A DNA stretch of 39,138 nt, from positions 1-39,138 of the forward strand of contig JABDFZ010000017.1 of assembly GCA_013286325.1 (NCBI GenBank), read 5' to 3'. The notes below the pieces were generated by a model, which saw only the letters and a list, made by a program, of their open reading frames with translations, did no database searches and had not been told where the DNA came from. A program made the translations under genes and the position numbers. Source of the DNA: Bacteroidota bacterium (GTDB taxonomy: Bacteria; Bacteroidota; Bacteroidia; Sphingobacteriales; Sphingobacteriaceae). Of this stretch, positions 28,465 to 38,017 are shown one piece after another. The first letter of the stretch is position 1, and every line of letters starts with the position of its first letter.

Positions 28465-29967
28465 ATGACCCTAAAACGCTATTTAAATAATCTCGATTCG
28501 TTAATAGCCGCCATTATTGGTTTTTATGTTATTTACCTGTTTACAAAATATAGTGGAGTTGGCATTTCGCCCGACTCCATTATGTATGCCAGTACTGCAA
28601 CCAATATGCAGGCGCATGGCACTATTATAACATTTAATAAGGGGCCATTGGTGTTCTTCCCTGTGTTTTATCCTTTTTTTCTAAGCGTTATCCAGTTTAT
28701 TTCGAGGGTTGACCCTATTGAAGCTGGTGCTATGATCAATGCCGGTCTTTTTGCTGCTGTAATATTTACCAGCGGGTGGATAATGGAAAAGTTCATTTCC
28801 CACTCTCGCATTTACAAGTGGCTGATACTTGTAGCTATTATTCTAAGTCCTGGTTTATTGGAAATTTACACCTACTTGTGGTCGGAAACGTTGTTTATTT
28901 TCGAGATCCTGCTTTTTATAATTGCTTACTGGAAGTACCTGCAAATACATACCACCAAAGCATTAATATTTGTTGCACTTATCACTGCAATTAGCTGTAT
29001 TACACGTTATGCCGGGGTAACTGTTGTAGGCGCCGGAGGACTGATGTTATTGCTGGACAACAAGCTAACGATTAAAAAGAAAATCATTCATATTTTAATG
29101 TTCGGCTTTATTTCAGTTTCACCTTTGGTAGGGAACCTGGTGATGAACAGGGTTAATTCGGGCTTGAGCACCGGCACACGTCTGCCTTCAATTACTCCTT
29201 TTATTGATAATCTGTACTATTTCGGCACCGTAATTTGCGATTGGGGAAGCTTGAGTAAGGCTGCTTATCCCCTGGCGACTGTTATTGCTTCGGTAGTATT
29301 ACTGGCTTTGATAGGTATTTTGTTATGGAAAGCGTTTAAGGGCCGCATTAATAGTTATGAAAACATTGTAATAGCTTTTGCCATTGTTTATGGGCTTTTT
29401 ATAGTGATATCGGCAAGTATATCCAGGTATGAGCGCATTAACAGCCGTTTGTTATCACCTATGTTTATTCCGCTTCTAATCTCTTGTACCAGTTGGGTGC
29501 CTGATGTCTTGAGACTGATAAAATCAAAGGCTAAATATGTGCTGGCTGGGGTAGCAATAATTTTGATGCTGGCCTTTGAATATTCAACTTTTCAAACAGA
29601 TTACCAGCGATATGACGATGAACATGATTACGGGGTACCCGGCTATAGTGATGATGATTGGAATAAGTCGGAATTTATTGTTTACCTAAGGCATCACAAA
29701 AGCATGTTTAAACCTGGCATCCCGATTTATACAGATGCCGATGAAGCGGTTTATCTGTTTACCCGAATGTCATCTACAGTAATACCCCATAAGTTTTTCA
29801 AGGCCGACGTTCAAAAATTTTATGCGCAAAAACGTTTTTACCTTATCTGGTTCACTAACTTATATAATACCGAGCTGATAAGCCTGCCTGATATTATGAA
29901 AAACAAAAAACTGGTTAAAATTGGTGAGGCCAAAGAGGGTATTATTTATTATTGTGATGAGAAATAA
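28465..29967 (+). CDS. Polytopic membrane protein, GT-C (family 39-like) glycosyltransferase-like
   Basis: 500 residues with about 10-11 transmembrane helices and a soluble C-terminal part. The first periplasmic loop carries an Asp in GVGISPDSIMYASTATN, the position of the acidic catalytic residue in GT-C enzymes, and YLWSETLFIFEILLFIIAYW is a typical helix of ArnT/PMT-like proteins. The C-terminal region (about 390-500) contains PIYTDADEAVYLFTRMSS and no extra domain. Such enzymes move sugars from polyprenyl phosphate to lipids or proteins. Substrate unknown. It lies alone before the his operon. Confidence 0.7.
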   Translation: MTLKRYLNNLDSLIAAIIGFYVIYLFTKYSGVGISPDSIMYASTATNMQAHGTIITFNKGPLVFFPVFYPFFLSVIQFISRVDPIEAGAMINAGLFAAVIFTSGWIMEKFISHSRIYKWLILVAIILSPGLLEIYTYLWSETLFIFEILLFIIAYWKYLQIHTTKALIFVALITAISCITRYAGVTVVGAGGLMLLLDNKLTIKKKIIHILMFGFISVSPLVGNLVMNRVNSGLSTGTRLPSITPFIDNLYYFGTVICDWGSLSKAAYPLATVIASVVLLALIGILLWKAFKGRINSYENIVIAFAIVYGLFIVISASISRYERINSRLLSPMFIPLLISCTSWVPDVLRLIKSKAKYVLAGVAIILMLAFEYSTFQTDYQRYDDEHDYGVPGYSDDDWNKSEFIVYLRHHKSMFKPGIPIYTDADEAVYLFTRMSSTVIPHKFFKADVQKFYAQKRFYLIWFTNLYNTELISLPDIMKNKKLVKIGEAKEGIIYYCDEK

Positions 29968-30022: not shown

Positions 30023-30052
30023 TTTGATTTAACAAACTGTTATTTATATTTG
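30023..30052 (+). promoter_or_regulatory. Promoter of the histidine operon
   Basis: TTTG at 30023-30026 and TATATTTG at 30045-30052 match the Bacteroidota -33 (TTTG) and -7 (TAnnTTTG) boxes, with 18 bases between. This is the best promoter in the window. Transcription should start near 30058-30060, just before a small hairpin (TATAGT/ACTATA, 30064-30078) and the leader ORF. Confidence 0.7.
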
Positions 30053-30085
30053 CACCGCTCATCTATAGTTTTACTATACAAAAAA

Positions 30086-30148
30086 ATGAACGGTTATACA
30101 TTATATCATTTGCACCTGCACCATCACCACCATGTGGTGATTAGATAA
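30086..30148 (+). CDS. hisL: His operon leader peptide, 20 residues with seven His
   Basis: ATG AAC GGT starts a 20-codon ORF, reading MNGYTLYHLHLHHHHHVVIR, then TAA. Seven of nine consecutive codons (residues 8-16) are His, using both CAC and CAT. It lies about 26 bases after the predicted transcription start and 67 bases before hisG, exactly the layout of an amino-acid attenuator. When charged His-tRNA is scarce, ribosomes should stall on this run and change the folding of the leader RNA. The coding region is itself part of nested hairpins. Missed by ORF callers because of its size. Confidence 0.9.
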   Translation: MNGYTLYHLHLHHHHHVVIR

Positions 30149-30153
30149 TGTAT
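30096..30153 (+). promoter_or_regulatory. Nested leader hairpins over the His codons (attenuator)
   Basis: Outer stem ATACATTAT (30096-30104) with ATAATGTAT (30145-30153), 9 bp. Inner stem ATCACCAC (30123-30130) with GTGGTGAT (30134-30141), 8 bp, 3-nt loop. The inner stem pairs the His codons with the two Val codons. A stalled ribosome would open both. A U-rich tract (TATTTTTATTATAG, 30185-30197) follows, but no strong hairpin directly before it could be found by eye, so the terminator half of the switch is unproven. Confidence 0.65.
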
Positions 30154-30215
30154 GTTTCTACGCGAAATAACAACCCTCCGTTTATATTTTTATTATAGTT
30201 CCTTAAAATCATTCA

Positions 30216-31067
30216 GTGAAAACACTTAAAATAGCGATCCAAAAATCGGGTCGGCTCAACGAAAAATCCGTTGAATTATTAAAAAACTGCGGCTTAAGCT
30301 TCGAAAACTACAAAAGCTCGCTTATCTCCCCTGTATCCAACTTTCCGCTCGAAATTCTTTTTCTGCGTGATGATGATATTCCCGAATATGTTCAGGATGG
30401 CATTGCCGACCTGGGTATTGTTGGTGAAAATGTGATACAGGAAACCGAAGTTGAGGTAAGCTACCTGCAACGCCTGGGCTTTGGCAGGTGTTCGCTTAAA
30501 ATAGCAGTACCAAACACAAACGACATTCAAAGTCTTGATGAATTGAATGGTAAATCGATAGCTACCTCGTACCCTGCTATCCTTGGTAAATTCCTGAAAG
30601 AAAAAGGTATACAAGCAGATATCCGCACCATTTCCGGCTCTGTAGAGATCTCTCCTGGTCTTGGGTTAAGTGACGCTATTTGCGACCTTGTATCCACAGG
30701 AGGCACACTTAAAAGCAATGGCTTAAAACCATTTGCTGATGTAATGACATCTGAAGCAGTATTAATAGGCCGCAAAGGAAGTGAAAATGAGGACCTTGTA
30801 AAGGAACTTATCCAACGCATTCAATCAGTATTAAGGGCTAAAGAAACCAAATATGTTGTTTTGAACGTTCATAAAAATAATTTACCGGCAATTACGGCAT
30901 TGCTTCCGGGTGTTAAAAGCCCTTCGGTAGTGCCATTGGCCGAGGAAAACTGGGTAGCTGTACATACTGTTATCCCGGAACGCGATTTCTGGGACAGGAT
31001 TAGTCAACTAAAACAAGCCGGAGCGCAGGGCATTGTAGTAATGCCGATTGAGAAGATTATTTTATAG
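30216..31067 (+). CDS. hisG: ATP phosphoribosyltransferase, long form
   Basis: First step of histidine synthesis: ATP + PRPP to phosphoribosyl-ATP. GTG start at 30216 gives the usual KTLKIAIQKSGRLNEKS. The PRPP-binding region is DAICDLVSTGGTLKSNGL. The 283-residue length and the C-terminal part (VVLNVHKNNLPAITALLPGVKSPSV...) show the long form with its own ACT-like regulatory domain, so no HisZ is needed and feedback by histidine is expected. First gene of the operon, behind the hisL attenuator. Confidence 0.97.
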   Translation: MKTLKIAIQKSGRLNEKSVELLKNCGLSFENYKSSLISPVSNFPLEILFLRDDDIPEYVQDGIADLGIVGENVIQETEVEVSYLQRLGFGRCSLKIAVPNTNDIQSLDELNGKSIATSYPAILGKFLKEKGIQADIRTISGSVEISPGLGLSDAICDLVSTGGTLKSNGLKPFADVMTSEAVLIGRKGSENEDLVKELIQRIQSVLRAKETKYVVLNVHKNNLPAITALLPGVKSPSVVPLAEENWVAVHTVIPERDFWDRISQLKQAGAQGIVVMPIEKIIL

Positions 31068-31133
31068 TTGGCAGTTAGCAGTATCTGTCAACAGCAGAAA
31101 CTGCAAACCGTCCACTGCAAACTGTAAACTGGA
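31068..31133. repeat. TTGGCAGTT/AACTGC intercistronic palindromic repeat, copy 1
   Basis: The hisG-hisD gap consists of TTGGCAGTTAGCAGT followed by ACTGCAAACCGTCC and ACTGCAAACTG units, inverted relative to the first arm. The same family fills the hisB-hisH gap. It can fold as an imperfect hairpin in the his mRNA. Confidence 0.65.
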
Positions 31134-32420
31134 ATGAAACGATATAATTATTCAGATTTAAGTATTGCCGATATCCAAAAACTGGTTCAGCGCAATGTTG
31201 ATCCAGCAAATGAGATCCGTGCCATTGTTGAGGATGTTATTGTGCATGTTCAGCAAAATGGAGATAGCGCTTTACTGGATTATGCTTTAAAATTTGACAA
31301 AGTCGAGTTGGATAAGTTATATCTGGACAAAGAGGAATTAACTGAAATTGCTTCGACAATTACTGATGAGCAAAAGGCAGCTTTAGAAATTGCATATAAC
31401 AATATTTATAAATTCCATGCTGCGCAGCTCAAAGCCGAAGGCAAAGTAGAAACGATGCCCGGTGTAACCTGCTGGCGCGAATTAAGGCCGATTGAAAAGG
31501 TTGGTTTATATATACCTGGCGGCAGCGCTGTATTGCCAAGTACATTTTTAATGCTTGGTATCCCGGCTAAAATAGCAGGGTGCAACGAGGTTATTGTTTG
31601 CTCACCTCCGCAAAAAAATGGAAAAGTAAATGCCTTTATTGCTTATGTTGCCCTTATGCTCGGGATTGATAAAATATACCTGGCAGGTGGATCGCAGGCA
31701 ATAGCAGCAATGGCTTATGGGACCGAAACCATTACTAAAGTTGATAAAATATTCGGCCCCGGAAACCAATTTGTTACCAAAGCAAAAACCATTATCCAAT
31801 CGACCACTACCACAGCCATTGATATGCCGGCAGGGCCGTCGGAAGTATTGGTTATTGCTGATGAAACCGCAAACCCGGTTTATGTTGCTGCTGATCTGTT
31901 GGCGCAGGCAGAGCATGGAATGGATAGTCAGGCTATATTGGTTTGCACATCCACCCAAATAGCCGGGAAAGTTCTGGCCGAGCTTGATAAGCAATTACCT
32001 GTATTGCCCCGTGCCGAAATTGCAAAGGTAGCTATCGAAAGCTCATATGTTGTGATAACAAATAACCTTATTGAAGCAATGAGTTTTAGCAACCAGTACG
32101 CCCCGGAGCACCTAATATTAGCTACTGAAAACTGGCAACAGATAACAAGCAGCATTATTAATGCAGGCTCAGTGTTCGTTGGTAATTTAACACCCGAAAG
32201 TGCAGGAGATTATGCATCAGGCACTAACCATACCTTGCCTACAAGCTCCTACGCGAGGGCTTATTCAGGGGTATCGGTTGATTCGTTTGTTAAAAAGATC
32301 ACGTTTCAGCATATCACACCTGAGGGGATACAAAACATCGGGCCATTTGTCGAAATACTGGCAGAACTGGAGGGATTACACGCGCATAAGAATGCAGTGA
32401 CGGTGAGAATGAAGGAATAA
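31134..32420 (+). CDS. hisD: Histidinol dehydrogenase
   Basis: Zinc-dependent, oxidises L-histidinol to histidine in two NAD steps; cytoplasmic dimer. Seen: YIPGGSAVLPSTFLMLGIPA (nucleotide region), DKIFGPGNQFVTKAK, MPAGPSEVLVIAD, AQAEHGMDSQAILV (metal/substrate His), NQYAPEHLIL (catalytic Glu-His) and GDYASGTNHTLPTS. The length of 428 matches the family. Start ATG 31134 follows the repeat-filled gap. Confidence 0.97.
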   Translation: MKRYNYSDLSIADIQKLVQRNVDPANEIRAIVEDVIVHVQQNGDSALLDYALKFDKVELDKLYLDKEELTEIASTITDEQKAALEIAYNNIYKFHAAQLKAEGKVETMPGVTCWRELRPIEKVGLYIPGGSAVLPSTFLMLGIPAKIAGCNEVIVCSPPQKNGKVNAFIAYVALMLGIDKIYLAGGSQAIAAMAYGTETITKVDKIFGPGNQFVTKAKTIIQSTTTTAIDMPAGPSEVLVIADETANPVYVAADLLAQAEHGMDSQAILVCTSTQIAGKVLAELDKQLPVLPRAEIAKVAIESSYVVITNNLIEAMSFSNQYAPEHLILATENWQQITSSIINAGSVFVGNLTPESAGDYASGTNHTLPTSSYARAYSGVSVDSFVKKITFQHITPEGIQNIGPFVEILAELEGLHAHKNAVTVRMKE

Positions 32421-32430
32421 TTTAAAAAAA

Positions 32431-32464
32431 CTTTGTCATTGCTTCGTGCCTCGCAATGACAAAG
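32431..32464. repeat. GTCATTGC...GCAATGAC hairpin repeat between hisD and hisC
   Basis: Perfect 12-bp stem CTTTGTCATTGC (32431-32442) with GCAATGACAAAG (32453-32464), loop TTCGTGCCTC. This is the sequence type seen as a dispersed repeat in many Bacteroidota genomes. No U-run follows, so it is more likely an mRNA-stability or processing element than a terminator. Confidence 0.75.
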
Positions 32465-32491
32465 TCAATTAAGGTTTTAGAATAAAGAAAA

Positions 32492-33538
32492 ATGTTTAGT
32501 ATAAATAACATATTAAGAGAAAACATAAAACAACTTGTCCCCTATTCCTCTGCACGTGATGAGTACCAGGGAGAGGCAAGCGTGTTTTTAGATGCTAATG
32601 AGAATGCATTCGGCTCACCTATGGAGCAGCAATTTAACCGCTACCCCGATCCGTTACAATTTGAAGTTAAAAAGCGGTTAACCAAGATTAAAGGCGTACC
32701 ACCGCGCAATATATTTGTAGGTAATGGCAGCGATGAAGCTATAGATATACTTTTTCGCAGCTTTTGCAATCCAGGTGCTGACAATGTGATATTGGTGCCT
32801 CCTACTTATGGGATGTACCAGGTTTCGGCTAATATAAATGATGTTGCTGTAAAGAATGTGCCGCTTACTGAAGAATTCCAGCTTAACCTTGAGGGTATAG
32901 CTGAGGCTATTGATAAAAACACCAAGCTTATATTTATCTGCTCTCCAAATAACCCTACAGGTAATTCTATCGACCGCACTGACATTGAAACCCTGCTTGC
33001 AAATTTTAGCGGCATAGTTGTGGTTGATGAAGCTTATATCAACTTTAGCAGGCAAAAGACTTTTATACAGGAGCTGACTGAATATGCAAATTTGGTTGTT
33101 CTGCAAACATTATCAAAAGCATGGGGGCTAGCCGGTTTGCGTATAGGTATGGCCTTTGCCAGTGAAGAAATTATTGAAGTGATGAACAAAGTTAAACCGC
33201 CATATAATGTAAACGAAGCTTCGCAACAACTGGCTTTACAAGCACTGGCTAATATAGAACAGGTAAACAACTGGATTAAGGAAATTTTATTGCAAAGGGA
33301 TAAACTGGTTCTAGGTTTAAAAGACTTCGATTTTGTGGTGGATATTTACCCTTCTGATGCAAATTTTATCCTGGTTAAAACCACTGATGCAAATGGCATT
33401 TATAATTTTTTAGTAGAAAAAGGCATAATTGTCCGCAACCGTTCGAAAGTTGAACTTTGCGAAGGCTGCTTACGCATTACTGTTGGCACACCTGATGAAA
33501 ACAACCTGTTACTCCAAACCTTACAAAACTTTAAATGA
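32492..33538 (+). CDS. hisC: Histidinol-phosphate aminotransferase
   Basis: PLP enzyme that converts imidazole-acetol phosphate and glutamate to histidinol phosphate. The PLP Lys is Lys209 in [50 protein letters not shown] and VVDEAYINF are the other fold-type I landmarks, and the phosphate-binding Arg region is [17 protein letters not shown]. 348 residues. Its stop overlaps the hisB start (ATGA). Confidence 0.97.
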
Positions 33539-34686
33539 GCAAGCTGCAAAAAATACTTTTTATTGACCGCGACGGCACCTTAATTGAAGAAACGCCGGAT
33601 GAGCAAATAGACTCGTTTGCAAAACTGACTTTCTATAAAGGTGCTTTGCAATATCTTCCTAAAATAGCTAAGGAGCTGGATTACGAGCTGGTGATGGTTA
33701 CTAATCAAGATGGTTTAGGTACGGCTTCGTATCCTGAGGATACATTTTGGCCGGTGCAGAACTTTGTACTTAAAACTTTTGAAAACGAAGGTGTTGTATT
33801 TTCAAACATCTGTGTTGACCGTACCTTTCCTGCTGAAAATGCTCCTACGCGTAAACCAGGGATCGGGTTACTGCTTCAATACTTTGATGCTGAAAAGTAT
33901 GATTTGAAAGGTTCGTTTACAATAGGCGACCGAAAGAACGATGTGCTGCTTGGTCATAACTTGGGAGCAAAAGCAATATGGCTGAACGATAATTCGAACT
34001 TAGGGAGTCATGAGTTTAAAAGCCCCGCGGAAGAAGATGCCGTAAAAAGCACTGTTGCTCTTGAAACTACAGACTGGCAAAAAATATATGAGTTTTTAAA
34101 ACTCGGGGAGCGTGTGTTTGAACATCGTAGAAGCACTAAGGAAACAGATATCTATATAAAAATAAACCTTGATGGTACAGGTGAAGCCAAAGTATCAACC
34201 GGTATTCATTTTTTTGACCACATGCTTGACCAGATTGCCCGGCATGGAAGTATTGATCTTGAGGTTGTTGCCAATGGCGATCTGCACATTGATGAGCACC
34301 ATACCATTGAAGATACCGGTATAGCCTTAGGCGAAGTGTTTGCTTTAGCCTTAGGCAATAAAAAGGGAATTGAACGCTATGGTTTTTGCCTGCCAATGGA
34401 TGATTGCCTTGCGCAGGCAGCCATTGATTTTGGCGGCAGGAACTGGATTGTTTGGGATGCGGAATTTAAAAGAGAAAAGATTGGAGAAATGCCAACAGAA
34501 ATGTTCTTCCACTTCTTCAAATCGTTCAGTGATGCAGCGAAAGCCAACCTGAATATAAAAGCCGAAGGTGAAAACGAACACCATAAAATTGAGGCTATAT
34601 TTAAAGCCTTTGCAAAAGCTATAAAAATGGCTGTGAAAAGAGATGTAAATAATATGGTTTTACCGTCTACTAAAGGACTTTTATAG
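33535..34686 (+). CDS. hisB: Bifunctional histidinol-phosphatase / imidazoleglycerol-phosphate dehydratase
   Basis: Two-domain HisB as in enterobacteria. N-terminal HAD phosphatase (1 to about 165): [11 protein letters not shown] with Asp11/Asp13, [36 protein letters not shown]-terminal dehydratase (about 190-383): [46 protein letters not shown] (metal His/Glu), EFFHF equivalent MFFHFFKSF and [17 protein letters not shown]. In the Zn fingerprint of the HAD part the CxH...CxC set is not seen in the usual form, only single cysteines, unlike the GmhB copy. Overlaps hisC by 4 bp, so translation is likely coupled. Confidence 0.96.
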
Positions 34687-34760
34687 TTGGCAGTAGGTAG
34701 TGTGCGGTTGGCAGTAATTGCCACTTTCACTGCAAACTGCAAACCGACAACTGCAAACTT
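34687..34760. repeat. TTGGCAGT/AACTGC intercistronic palindromic repeat, copy 2
   Basis: The hisB-hisH gap holds TTGGCAGTAGGTAGTG, CGGTTGGCAGT and, inverted, ACTGCAAACTGC and CAACTGCAAACT. Same family as the hisG-hisD gap, with the two copies differing in arm number. Foldable as a long imperfect hairpin. Confidence 0.7.
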
Positions 34761-35351
34761 ATGATAGGGATAATACAATACGGTGCCGGGAACATTTTCT
34801 CATTAACTGCTGCTTTGGAGCGGTTAGGGATTGCCTATGGCATGATCAGTAAAGAAGACGATTTTGAACTTTATGACAGATACATTATTCCAGGGGTTGG
34901 GCATGCGGGTGCTGCTATGAATAAGCTGGAGCAAACCGGTTTAGTGTCGAAAATAAAATCGCTTAGCAAACCTACATTGGGTATTTGTGTAGGTATGCAG
35001 TTGTTAACCACACATTCGGAAGAAGGCGACACTAACTTATTGAATATCATCCCTGTAAGAACACTAAAATTTACAAGTAGTCCGTTATATAAGATACCGC
35101 ATACCGGATGGAACAGGGTGTATCCCGAAAAGGAAAGTTTACTTTTTGAAAATATTCCGAACGGATCACACTTTTACTTTGTACATTCATACTTTATTGA
35201 GCATAATATTGCATATACTTTATCGACAACAACTTATAACGAAAAGTTTTCGGCATCAATTATGCATAATAATTTTTATGGTGTACAGTTCCATCCTGAA
35301 AAATCCGGGGCCTATGGTGAAATCTTACTAAAAAACTTCTCAAAAATTTAA
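34761..35351 (+). CDS. hisH: Imidazole glycerol phosphate synthase, glutaminase subunit
   Basis: Class I glutamine amidotransferase that makes ammonia and passes it through the HisF barrel. The triad is Cys76 (GICVGMQLL), His178 and Glu180 (GVQFHPEKSG). The N-terminal IIQYGAGN is the usual start. 196 residues. Four bp separate its stop from hisA. Its partner HisF carries an N-terminal extension (see the fusion entry), on the side where HisH docks. Confidence 0.97.
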   Translation: MIGIIQYGAGNIFSLTAALERLGIAYGMISKEDDFELYDRYIIPGVGHAGAAMNKLEQTGLVSKIKSLSKPTLGICVGMQLLTTHSEEGDTNLLNIIPVRTLKFTSSPLYKIPHTGWNRVYPEKESLLFENIPNGSHFYFVHSYFIEHNIAYTLSTTTYNEKFSASIMHNNFYGVQFHPEKSGAYGEILLKNFSKI

Positions 35352-35355
35352 AGAC

Positions 35356-36105
35356 ATGTACATTATTCCTGCAATTGATATTTTAAATAAAAAAGTAGTA
35401 CGGTTACGTGAGGGCGATTACCAACAGGTAACAGAATATGATGTTTCCCTTGAGGAAATGATAGATAAATATCAATCCAACGGCACTAACTTTATCCATA
35501 TCATCGACCTTAATGGTGCTAAAAACGATTTCTCGAACCAGCAATATCTTTTTGATGTGATCCGCAAAACGGACATGATGGTTCAGTACGGCGGCGGCAT
35601 CCGCAGCATTGACAAGGTTAAGGAACTGATAGACTCAGGCGTACACCGCGTTATTGTAGGCACACAAGCGCTTACAAACCCATCATTTTTACCCGAGCTA
35701 AGCAAGGAGGTTTGCGGTCGGGATAAATGCTCAGACCAGGTGGTTATTGCCATTGATGTATTGGATGAGGTAATTAAATATTCCGGCTGGATGGAAAGCT
35801 CTCCTATTAAATTAATGGATTACGTTGATAAATGCCTGGCTTTAGGTTTTTTCCGTTTTTTATGTACCGATATTAATAAGGATGGCAAACTTGGCGGCGC
35901 AGGGATTGAACTTTATGAAAAACTGCTCGATCATTCACCTTTTATAAAACTTATTGCTTCGGGTGGAGTAAGCTCCATGACTGATGTTGAACAGCTTAGC
36001 AATATTAAGGTTGAATCGTGTGTGGTTGGCAAAGCCATTTATGAGGGACATATTACTATTGAAGAAGTAAAAAACTGGAACCTGGAATCGCTGATATCAA
36101 TATAA
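35356..36105 (+). CDS. hisA: ProFAR isomerase
   Basis: TIM barrel that isomerises ProFAR to PRFAR. Catalytic Asp8 in MYIIPAIDI, phosphate sites GGGIRS and IASGGVSS, and the second acid in VVIAIDVLDEVIKYSGW. 249 residues, normal length. The stop at 36103-36105 is followed after one base-pair-level junction by the left terminal repeat of the DUF559 cassette, so hisA itself is intact. Confidence 0.96.
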   Translation: MYIIPAIDILNKKVVRLREGDYQQVTEYDVSLEEMIDKYQSNGTNFIHIIDLNGAKNDFSNQQYLFDVIRKTDMMVQYGGGIRSIDKVKELIDSGVHRVIVGTQALTNPSFLPELSKEVCGRDKCSDQVVIAIDVLDEVIKYSGWMESSPIKLMDYVDKCLALGFFRFLCTDINKDGKLGGAGIELYEKLLDHSPFIKLIASGGVSSMTDVEQLSNIKVESCVVGKAIYEGHITIEEVKNWNLESLISI

Positions 36106-36131
36106 AAGCCCCCTGGCCCCCTAAAGGGGGA
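36106..36131 (+). repeat. Left terminal repeat of the DUF559 cassette
   Basis: Reads AAGCCCCCTGG followed by CCCCCTAAAGGGGGA. It starts right after the hisA stop, and its inverse at 36501-36531 matches with about one gap and a few changes. A degenerate solo copy is at 9120-9142. Confidence 0.75.
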
Positions 36132-36144
36132 ACAATAGTTTGAT

Positions 36145-37284
36145 ATGAGAAAGAAAATGTTTTTGGGTGCAGGCAGCTTAATATTCAAAAATGCTGAAGC
36201 ACTTAGAAACAATTTGACTCCAGCGGAGATGTTATTATGGGGTCATTTAAAAGGGAACCAGCTTGGGGCAAAATTCAGAAGACAACATCCTTTAGGAATT
36301 TATATTGCAGACTTTTATTGTCATCAACATAAACTTATTATCGAAATTGACGGAAGCATTCATAATCTGCTCAGAGTTATAGCAAACGATTTAGAACGTC
36401 AAATTAGCCTTGAAATGGATGGAATCAAATTTCTCCGTTTTAGGAATGAAGAAATATTTAATCATTTGGAAAAAGTGTTGAATACTATAAAACAAACTTT
36501 AAGCTCCCCCTTTAGGGGGGCGGGGGGCCTTACTAAAAGAATTATCCCCTGCCTTGACGTTAAAGATGGCCGTACTGTAAAGGGGGTTAACTTTGTCGAT
36601 CTGCGAGATGCAGGAGACCCGGTTGAGCTCGCATGGAACTATTCGCAGCAAGGCGCTGATGAATTGGTATTTTTGGACATAACAGCAACTGTTGAGCGAC
36701 GTAAAACCATGGTTGAGCTTGTAAAAGCAGTGGCAAGGCAAATAAACATCCCATTCACCATAGGTGGCGGTATTAATGAAATTGCTGATGCTGACGCGCT
36801 TTTAAATGCCGGAGCCGATAAAATATCCATCAATTCTGCTGCAGTGCGTAATCCGGCTTTGATTGATGAACTGGCTAAAGCCTTTGGAGTTCAGTTTGTA
36901 GTAATAGCTGTAGATACCCGGATTATTGCCAATAAAAACATTGTGCACCTGAATGGCGGCAGGTTGCCAACAGAAAAGGAAACACTGGACTGGATTTTAG
37001 AAGCCGAAAGTCGCGGGGCAGGCGAAATACTGCTAACCTCCATGGATCATGACGGCACAAAAGCTGGCTTTGATAACGGGCTGCTAAAATTGGTAAATGA
37101 TGCGGTGAATATTCCTGTTATTGCTTCTGGAGGTGCAGGTTCAGTACAGCATTTTGTGGATGTATTTGAAAAAAGCAATGTGGATGCAGCTTTGGCAGCA
37201 TCAGTTTTTCATTACGGGGAAATATTGATCCCTGATTTGAAAAAGATTTTGAAAGCGAATAATATAGAGGTTAGAGAAATATAA
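36145..37284 (+). CDS. hisF: DUF559 nuclease-like domain fused to HisF (cyclase subunit of IGP synthase)
   Basis: 379 residues. Residues 1-120 are a complete DUF559 domain (Vsr/PD-(D/E)xK superfamily): [45 protein letters not shown], with acidic/His residues Asp56, Glu67, Asp69 and His73, then [12 protein letters not shown]. Residues about 121-128 (SPFRGAGG) are the translated right repeat. From Leu129 a full HisF follows: [14 protein letters not shown] with Asp138 and Asp257 matching the catalytic Asp11 and Asp130 of Thermotoga HisF. There is no ATG, GTG or TTG at the junction, so HisF must be made as the fusion or from an internal GTG/TTG about 36475-36480. Free-standing HisF has about 251 residues, equal to this C-terminal part. 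Confidence 0.93.
36501..36531 (-). repeat. Right terminal repeat of the DUF559 cassette
   Basis: Inverted copy of the left end: CCCCCTTTAGGGGGG followed by CGGGGGGCCTT. It is translated in the fusion gene as [10 protein letters not shown]. Its last bases CTT also encode the conserved first Leu of HisF. Confidence 0.75.
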
Positions 37285-37305
37285 CTAATAATAGAACAGC
37301 ATGAC

Positions 37306-37392
37306 ATGCTGAACTTGTTTCAGCACCTCATATGCTAAGTCAATATCAGGCAGGCGAATTGTCTTGTGTGATACCGAAACAAGTTCGGCATG
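37306..37392. repeat. ATGCTGAACTTGTTTCAG inverted repeat between hisF and hisIE
   Basis: Left arm ATGCTGAACTTGTTTCAG (37306-37323) and the inverse of the right arm (37374-37392, CCGAAACAAGTTCGGCAT) agree in 16 of 18 places, with a 50-nt middle. This is another common Bacteroidota dispersed repeat type. It fills most of the 145-bp gap. Confidence 0.7.
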
Positions 37393-37429
37393 ATAGGTTG
37401 AGACAGCATGTATAAGAAATAAATACGAG

Positions 37430-38017
37430 ATGAACATCGATTTCAATAAAACAGACGGACTGGTACCGGTAATAATACAGGATGAGCAGACGCTTGAAGT
37501 GCTGATGCTTGGCTATATGAACCAGGAAGCCTATGATAAAACGGTACAGGAAAATATTGTCACTTTTTTTTCGCGCTCAAAAAACAGGCTGTGGACCAAA
37601 GGCGAAACAAGCAATAATTTTCTGCACGTGAAGCATATCAGTATCGACTGCGATAATGATACCCTGCTTATAAAAGTTAAAGCCGATGGCCCAACCTGCC
37701 ATACAGGCGACCGCAGCTGTTTTAAAACAGATTACAATCAAAACTTTATATTACAATTAGAGCAAATTATTGCTGACCGGTATGAGCATCCACAAGAAGG
37801 ATCGTATGTAAATAAATTGCGCACAAAGGGTTTAAATAAGATAGCACAAAAGGTTGGAGAAGAAGGTGTTGAAACAGTTATAGCAGCTTTGGCGGAAACA
37901 GAAACAGATTTGATCAATGAATCGTCTGATCTGATTTTTCACCTGCTTGTGCTGCTTCGGGAAAAGGGACTAAGCCTTGAACAGATAGCCAGAAATTTAG
38001 AAGAAAGACATAAATAA
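37430..38017 (+). CDS. hisIE: Bifunctional phosphoribosyl-AMP cyclohydrolase / phosphoribosyl-ATP pyrophosphatase
   Basis: Steps two and three of histidine synthesis in one protein (195 residues). HisI part: EVLMLGYMNQEAYDKT, VTFFSRSKNRLWTKGETSNN, and the metal-binding DCDNDTLLIKV, GPTCHTGDRSCF. HisE part from about residue 108: LEQIIADRYEHPQEGSYVNKL, KIAQKVGEEGVETVIAAL with the acidic pyrophosphatase residues, and FHLLVLLREKGLSLEQI. Both domains are complete. Last biosynthetic gene of the operon. Confidence 0.97.
   Translation: MNIDFNKTDGLVPVIIQDEQTLEVLMLGYMNQEAYDKTVQENIVTFFSRSKNRLWTKGETSNNFLHVKHISIDCDNDTLLIKVKADGPTCHTGDRSCFKTDYNQNFILQLEQIIADRYEHPQEGSYVNKLRTKGLNKIAQKVGEEGVETVIAALAETETDLINESSDLIFHLLVLLREKGLSLEQIARNLEERHK

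Follow-up and report, generated by a model that had tools for sequence, protein, structure and literature searches.

In the Sphingobacteriaceae, a histidine-rich leader peptide ahead of the his operon probably controls the translation of hisG instead of terminating transcription, a histidine-controlled translational attenuation deduced here from sequence comparisons. The switching appears to be done by a long-range helix, P1, that joins two translation start sites, the leader's and that of hisG. As a sensor, the leader belongs to a known type; the novelty lies in the output, a variant of that type.

The window, the whole stretch of 39,138 nt that was analysed, belongs to a Mucilaginibacter assembly (G000) that is 61 % complete, and the closest named relatives of its HisG are from Mucilaginibacter (95 % identity). 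The his operon extends from 30216 to 38017 in the order hisG, hisD, hisC, hisB, hisH, hisA, hisF, hisIE; hisC, hisH and the distinction between hisA and hisF are presumptive assignments made from protein family and gene order. The region 36145–37284 is a single open frame with a DUF559 domain (residues 15–119) followed by HisF (residues 132–360), which could be a fused gene or, alternatively, a neighbouring frame in phase with hisF, whose own start would then be internal. Upstream of the operon, 28465–29967 encodes a 500 aa protein, hydrophobic by eye, that has no Pfam match at E values up to 0.001. The features of the leader region are as follows.

30023–30052, + strand: promoter of the Bacteroidota kind by sequence, TTTG at 30023–30026 and TATATTTG at 30045–30052.
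30064–30078, + strand: H0, 5′ hairpin TATAGT-TTT-ACTATA, the right arm of which is also part of P1.
30073–30093, + strand: P1 5′ strand, ACTATA and AAAAAATGAACGG, comprising the stretch upstream of the leader ATG and the opening codons of the leader.
30086–30148, + strand: leader ORF MNGYTLYHLHLHHHHHVVIR, ATG start, 20 codons, 7 His, TAA stop.
30123–30141, + strand: H2, last His codons paired with the following codons, ATCACCAC-CAT-GTGGTGAT.
30154–30168, + strand: H3, hairpin after the stop, GUUUC-UACGC-GAAAU.
30178–30199, + strand: P1 3′ strand, CCGTTTATATTTTTATTATAGT, closely preceding the start region of hisG.
30216–31067, + strand: hisG, with GTG as start codon and at the head of hisGDCBHAF(IE), operon to 38017; Pfam HisG, 177 bits.

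TTTG and TATATTTG fit the Bacteroidota promoter consensus, and the TTTG within TATATTTG was at least 90 % conserved in an alignment of 70 sequences of relatives. The 5′ end of the RNA is predicted to lie near 30058, i.e. about 25–30 nt upstream of the leader ATG.

The leader ORF, separated from hisG by 67 nt, stands out within the window. When 1923 start-to-stop ORFs of 8–50 codons (ATG, GTG or TTG, both strands) were scanned, four had at least 5 His in 12 residues, namely the leader, its two in-frame TTG variants and an unrelated minus-strand TTG ORF at 327. Base-shuffled upstream regions gave an ATG ORF with at least 4 His in 12 residues in 15 of 4940 cases, and with at least 5 in none. For the comparison of relatives, hisG upstream regions were taken from 80 named genome loci, from the best-match loci of 151 family, 61 order and 148 phylum genomes (overlapping sets) and from 100 further stretches. 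A leader was recorded where a short ORF with at least 4 His in 12 residues lay no more than 300 nt from hisG. L046, which is at a contig end, and regions identical across the last 120 nt were excluded, and outside the Sphingobacteriaceae 64 of 122 hisG loci were taken in, distant HisG (~30 % identity) being left out. A His-rich leader precedes hisG at 154 of the 158 distinct Sphingobacteriaceae (f1) loci and at 51 of the 64 loci from other Bacteroidota families (f14, 12/12; f21, 12/12; f4, probably the Flavobacteriaceae, 10/14; f8, 4/4; f2, 3/4; f19, 3/4; f3, 2/2; f5, 2/2; f9, 1/1; f22, 1/1; f27, 1/2; f16, 0/3; f12, 0/2; f23, 0/1). Two of the four Sphingobacteriaceae loci that were missed, L164 and L190, carry the leader further upstream, where the covariance model described below matches (in G068 and G028), and no leader was found at the other two, L174 and L185.

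Set against 15 in 4940 shuffles, these counts are not due to chance, and because most loci across the Bacteroidota families have the leader, the sensor is widespread and ordinary. The leader very probably senses histidine shortage. The sequence-only reading had described the ORF at 30086–30148, with 20 codons and 7 His, as a leader peptide, rich in His, that belongs to a his operon of the Bacteroidota, and had named its absence from relatives as grounds for giving that up; the ORF is as described, and the counts from the family bear the description out.

Not all of the loci share one leader architecture. At four loci of family genus g5 (L183, L186, L193 and L195), the leader is different and longer, with 9 His in 12 residues (e.g. 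MITKQHIALHHHTHLHHGHHHHCA), the gap is 117–122 nt and hisG starts with ATG. At L177 and L184, from family genus g4, a second small ORF lies between the leader and hisG, entering or overlapping the hisG ATG, and the gap exceeds 150 nt; by eye, this is likely to be a translational coupling variant. Nine f21 loci (L232, L235–L237, L240, L241, L243, L247 and L248) have GTG-started His-rich leaders with 7–8 His in 12 residues.

A covariance model of the leader, H2 and H3 (R1) matched one place in the window genome, with 84.5 bits. Matches were found in 119 of 151 family genomes, among which the sequences used to build the model match by construction, and hisG itself was found in 133 of the 151. Among 148 phylum genomes, all six from the family matched (68.5–84.5 bits), as did 4 of the 142 others, weakly (34.9–40.8 bits); these four are all from one f4 genus, which has a his leader of its own, and the model matches where that leader begins. 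Searches at the scale of genome sets used stricter filters, by which weak matches are lost. Three of the g5 genomes with the long leader had no R1 match among those listed. A second match in G098 is at the extreme end of a contig, and the gene there is unreadable because the contig ends.

A 221 nt RNA from the window folds with a z score of −2.65 (2 of 200 shuffles fold at least as well). In H2, an 8 bp hairpin in the window, His codons pair with two Val codons, and the inner six pairs are conserved and covary in relatives, the arms ATCACC/GGTGAT alternating with ATCGCC/GGCGAT. In H3, all five pairs are changed on both sides somewhere and 98.5 % of cells are paired; stems include GUUUC/GAAAC and GUUUUG/CAAAAC, and the loop is UACGU or UACUU in most of those seen. 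For the two hairpins together, 96.2 % of cells were paired in 66 sequences, with 47 doubly changed cells compared with 11.1 in shuffles, and none of 500 shuffles reached the score. Sliding the hairpins as a control gave 34–63 % paired. The 66 exclude four loci of odd architecture (L070, L077, L105 and L197) from a set of 70; with all 70 included, 92.8 % of cells were paired and 45 were doubly changed, compared with 13.5. The His/Val-codon hairpin had been noted from the sequence alone, with covariation across relatives proposed as a check, and both H2 and H3 came through it. An outer stem of 9 bp that was noted with it, 30096–30104 with 30145–30153, is present in the window and spans the stop; however, it was rejected as a functional helix, as its nine pairs form in only 14–46 of 70 family sequences and 4–28 of 28 Mucilaginibacter sequences. 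Allowing up to one mismatch, the H3 sequence TGTTTCTACGYGAAA has a single match in the window genome. The idea that the GTTTCTACGYGAAA hairpin is a common chassis of several operons was also dropped, since the assembly, at 61 % completeness, contains it once.

P1 lies mostly outside 30086–30153, the segment singled out in the earlier reading. It was examined by partner exchange, in which the pairing of each leader with its own hisG upstream region is compared with that of strands exchanged between loci, in 70 non-redundant loci with a leader–hisG gap of 45–95 nt. Own partners paired at −12.53 kcal/mol and exchanged partners at −8.47 kcal/mol (z −11.8, 0 of 500, from permutations that ignore descent), and two control regions gave z scores of −1.0 and 0.08. 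The signal survived when each genus was represented by a single locus (n=21, z −5.9), and it held for Mucilaginibacter on its own (n=28, z −4.0) as well as for the set from which Mucilaginibacter had been removed (n=42, z −9.4). An earlier run on 82 genus-labelled loci, with no gap filter, gave −12.75 for own partners versus −8.26 between genera; the loci that ranked poorly in it came from g15, g16 and g17 (several each) and from g2, g3, g5 and g22 (one each). The arms vary by genus, as illustrated by ACTATACAAAAAAATGAACGG/CCGTTTATATTTTTATTATAGT in the window, TTTAATCAGG/TCTGATTAAA in L155 and AAATTATTAAAAAAGAC/GTCTTTTATTAATAATT in L163. In three other families, the same windows gave no such signal (f21, z 0.31, n=12; f4, z −0.18, n=10; f14, z −0.30, n=12), and wider windows gave a weak one in f21 (z −1.71, 32 of 500).

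The P1 strands were located to about −30 to +10 of the leader ATG and −35 to −5 of hisG, with medians of −18 to +4 on the leader side and −36 to −13 on the hisG side. The 5′ strand contains the leader ATG in 56 of the 70 loci, and in 61 the 3′ strand ends no more than 20 nt from where hisG starts. The median distance from the end of P1 to hisG is 13 nt, so that the upstream part of the 30S site is covered and the start codon is not; to that extent, P1 is a helix over the initiation region of the regulated gene. Pairing of the His codons themselves with the hisG upstream region showed no excess for leader windows of +15 to +35 and +20 to +40, where, or just beyond which, most of the His codons lie. 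A local 5′ hairpin corresponding to H0 is found in 58 of the 70 loci, and in 51 of those 58 its 3′ arm overlaps the P1 strand. The partner-exchange signal for H0 (z −3.79, 0 of 500; z −2.25, 8 of 500 in narrower windows) is weaker than that for P1.

The start codon of hisG was surveyed in a second set, made up of 158 distinct loci of the family at which the leader begins with ATG. At the 146 with a gap of up to 90 nt, hisG starts with GTG at 74, TTG at 68 and ATG at one; the remaining three are unreadable because the protein match begins later. An in-frame ATG, either before the upstream stop or in codons 2–20 of hisG, was found at none of these 146 loci, the window included. At the long-gap loci, the start is ATG in 11 of 12, with one unreadable, and in other families, with the start taken as the farthest in-frame ATG or the start of the match, it is ATG at 37 of 37 (f4, 10; f14, 12; f21, 12; f2, 3). 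An A at −3 is present in 54 of 70 leaders versus 25 of 70 hisG genes. According to the available parts of a study of Flavobacterium johnsoniae, a species of the Bacteroidetes, A at −3 favours initiation and mRNA structure in the start region tunes it (PMC6847099). With GTG or TTG at short gaps, ATG elsewhere and few A at −3, hisG has the look of a gene meant to start weakly, chiefly at loci where P1 adjoins it. Control of hisG translation via the GTG start had been offered earlier as an alternative to termination, and the 142 of 146 short-gap loci with GTG or TTG support it.

Terminators, defined as a terminator-like hairpin with a T-run in the last 170 nt upstream of hisG, were found at 2 of the 158 Sphingobacteriaceae loci, which is the shuffled rate (0.01). 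In the window, there are none on the + strand between 29700 and 30700, as was to be expected from the sequence-only reading, which saw no classical terminator before hisG. In other families they are present at 12/12 loci of f14, 13/14 of f4, 4/4 of f2, 2/2 of f3, 2/2 of f5, 2/4 of f8, 1/3 of f16, 1/1 of f22 and 1/2 of f27, and none was found in f21 (0/12), f19 (0/4), f12 (0/2), f9 (0/1) or f23 (0/1). Antiterminator-type pairing, in which the end of the ORF would bind the region downstream, is not found in the Sphingobacteriaceae (own −8.00 versus −8.83 exchanged, z +3.78). In f4 and f14, pairing between the ORF end and the terminator region is possible, with −16.4 and −15.9 kcal/mol, respectively; owing to the similarity of the sequences, it is no better within loci than between them. 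In f21, the ORF end pairs with the downstream sequence (z −3.13, 1 of 500), and as f21 has no terminators and no P1 of the kind described, it may have a third platform.

Terminator-type leaders are found at trp in the same genus. In the window genome, the trp leader MIKINHNNSWWHQLILAAG (L250, G000:C16) lies ~200 to 60 nt upstream of a trpE homologue, and the complete relative G101 (L249) has MIKINHKNSWWHQLILAAG; trpE homologues were called with TIGR00564 at scores below the curated cut-off. By eye, both consist of a short ORF in which two Trp codons are adjacent, then a GC-rich hairpin with a T-run, before the trpE homologue. Hence, these cells appear to use terminator-type leaders, but not at his. 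The Bacteroid-trp motif is a Trp leader. At the gathering score, Rfam gave no match at the two Mucilaginibacter trpE loci, that motif (RF01692) included. A second leader lacking a terminator was sought at ilvB and not obtained: TIGR00118 has no match in the window genome and three in G101, and the region upstream of the best of these has no visible Ile/Val/Leu-rich leader.

The conserved His ORF, H2 and H3, P1, the missing terminator, the weak GTG/TTG start of hisG and the bases shared by H0 and P1 together underlie the translational reading, which would work as follows. With enough histidine, ribosomes would clear the leader, and H2 and H3 would fold and bring the P1 strands together; P1 would then close the hisG initiation site and also the leader's own. 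When histidine is lacking, one ribosome would stall at the His codons, and together with another loading behind it would keep H2 and the P1 5′ strand open, and with P1 open the hisG start would be free and the operon translated. H0, which shares bases with P1, would compete for the same strand, and poor translation of hisG may additionally lower the amount of distal mRNA.

The cost of opening the hisG start was modelled by RNA folding with ribosome-blocked bases (n=70). It is 6.99 kcal/mol for free RNA, 6.91 when a ribosome occupies the stop, 6.15 with a ribosome stalled alone at the first His, 6.50 with one stalled mid-run, 4.59 with an initiating ribosome alone and 4.63–5.23 with a stalled plus an initiating ribosome; in the window itself, the modelled range is only 5.85 to 4.66. 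The models agree with the translational reading in part: blocking the leader start lowers the cost to about 4.6, which a ribosome at the stop does not. A ribosome that is stalled alone makes little difference, however, and an initiating ribosome alone is as effective as a stalled one plus an initiating one, so that static folding does not explain the histidine dependence of P1 opening, and the step tying P1 to histidine is one that we infer. It is an almost evenly balanced question, on which we lean slightly towards no, whether the output has changed family-wide under a kept sensor, with, in place of the terminator, a reciprocal lock in which the leader and hisG initiation regions hide each other via P1, with H0 competing and the hisG start weakened to GTG or TTG. 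If this is true, sensor and lock form a single device held together by base pairs, and this in a phylum where translation does not depend on Shine–Dalgarno pairing.

Other explanations give P1 a different role or none. Rho-dependent attenuation, already named as a possibility from the sequence alone, would have Rho load on the C-rich, G-poor His-codon stretch once the leader ribosome leaves and terminate transcription before or in hisG, a stalled ribosome masking the site and the hairpins and P1 tuning the process. It fits the absence of an intrinsic terminator (2/158, the shuffled rate), the C-richness of the His-codon stretch and the untranslated gap of 67 nt. However, it leaves both the position of the P1 strand at the hisG start and the GTG/TTG starts unexplained, and we consider it unlikely. 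P1 might also mainly close the leader and set how often the leader is translated, with hisG controlled elsewhere. The leader start is indeed the costlier to open in the models (11.85 versus 6.99 kcal/mol for the hisG start) and the leader ATG is inside the P1 strand in 56/70, but this is improbable, since the other strand is within 20 nt of hisG in 61/70 although the gap allows other places.

A classical transcription attenuator, with an unusual terminator formed by P1 and its U-rich 3′ strand, is suggested by the window, where this strand combines a high U content with a GC clamp (CCGTTTATATTTTTATT), might look like a terminator of the A-tract/U-tract type and is paired as P1 in the lowest-energy fold. 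Beyond the window the resemblance fades: at least 6 T in the 8 nt after P1 were found in 0/70, the mean T fraction there is 0.33 versus 0.40 in the region, and several other genera have the U-run on the loop side or mid-helix, which makes this explanation quite improbable. That the repeated arms are DNA operator sites for a repressor, and not RNA, is hardly credible. The H0 palindrome directly downstream of the promoter speaks for it, but the arm sequences vary between genera while complementarity stays, as in RNA pairing, and the leader ORF would be left unexplained.

Under the preferred reading, control of hisG translation, the his leaders offer a natural experiment, with one gene and one kind of sensor but different outputs in related families, and with a terminator-type leader still at trp in the same genome. 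Amino-acid control in Bacteroidota becomes directly testable. The comparison suggests how terminator-based and translational attenuators may replace each other, and makes a case for asking how structure, not Shine–Dalgarno pairing, controls translation starts in Bacteroidota.

Among the open-licence papers covered by the literature search, none was recognised as describing a his leader of the Sphingobacteriaceae. Candidate attenuators in Bacteroidetes/Chlorobi are reportedly mentioned by Vitreschak et al. 2004 (FEMS), and part of the phylum-wide picture may therefore already be in print. The available parts of PMC2965389, PMC3766115, PMC7366714, PMC4833913 and PMC2864571 describe no Bacteroidota his leader, and those of PMC7366714 report short ORFs reminiscent of leader peptides in 5′ UTRs of B. 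thetaiotaomicron. For Flavobacterium psychrophilum, the accessible text presents strong clues that amino-acid operons are subject to leader-peptide attenuation, and describes a hisG 5′ element that is conserved in other Flavobacteriaceae and has no Rfam match (PMC9723704). That report, the terminators common at his in other families and the one at trp in the window genome contradict the sequence-only reading on one point, namely that Rho-independent attenuators are poorly described in this phylum.

HisL-type attenuators are textbook knowledge. Rfam gave no match in the window at the gathering score (RF00514 and RF01692 included), and at E values up to 10 only chance-level matches at four loci, RF00514 not among them. 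As far as the available excerpts of the papers cited here go, HisL (RF00514) and the his attenuators of Firmicutes (PMC9413887) resemble the present family in two respects: ahead of the his operon lies a short leader ORF containing consecutive His codons, and there are alternative RNA structures. They differ in their terminator hairpin, the present family being without a terminator, antiterminator-type pairing or Rfam match. The Flavobacteriaceae hisG 5′ element (PMC9723704, excerpted text) shares the phylum, the gene and leader-peptide attenuation at amino-acid operons; unlike the Sphingobacteriaceae, the probable Flavobacteriaceae loci (f4) have a terminator in 13/14, an ATG start for hisG and no P1. 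The Bacteroid-trp motif (RF01692; PMC2864571, in part) is likewise a candidate cis-regulatory RNA of Bacteroidetes, but RF01692 is unmatched in the window and at the two Mucilaginibacter trpE loci.

The available part of PMC1262725 describes the LEU element of Actinobacteria, which also has a leader ORF, a base stem to the initiation site of a biosynthetic gene and no obvious terminator. However, its Leu codons pair with the leuA Shine–Dalgarno sequence, whereas here it is the leader-ATG region that pairs upstream of hisG, and the His codons pair locally, in H2. In some attenuators, a structure hiding the ribosome site replaces the terminator (PMC9413887, in the text available). Such ribosome-site-sequestering attenuators, together with erm-type translation attenuation (PMC9413887 and PMC2965389, both in part), are the best match in principle, with a leader ORF, stalling and a helix that hides the initiation site of the gene. 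The present family differs from them in that the hiding strand is the leader's own initiation region, the signal would be an amino acid, and no Shine–Dalgarno sequence is in play, a trait of the phylum according to the available parts of PMC6847099.
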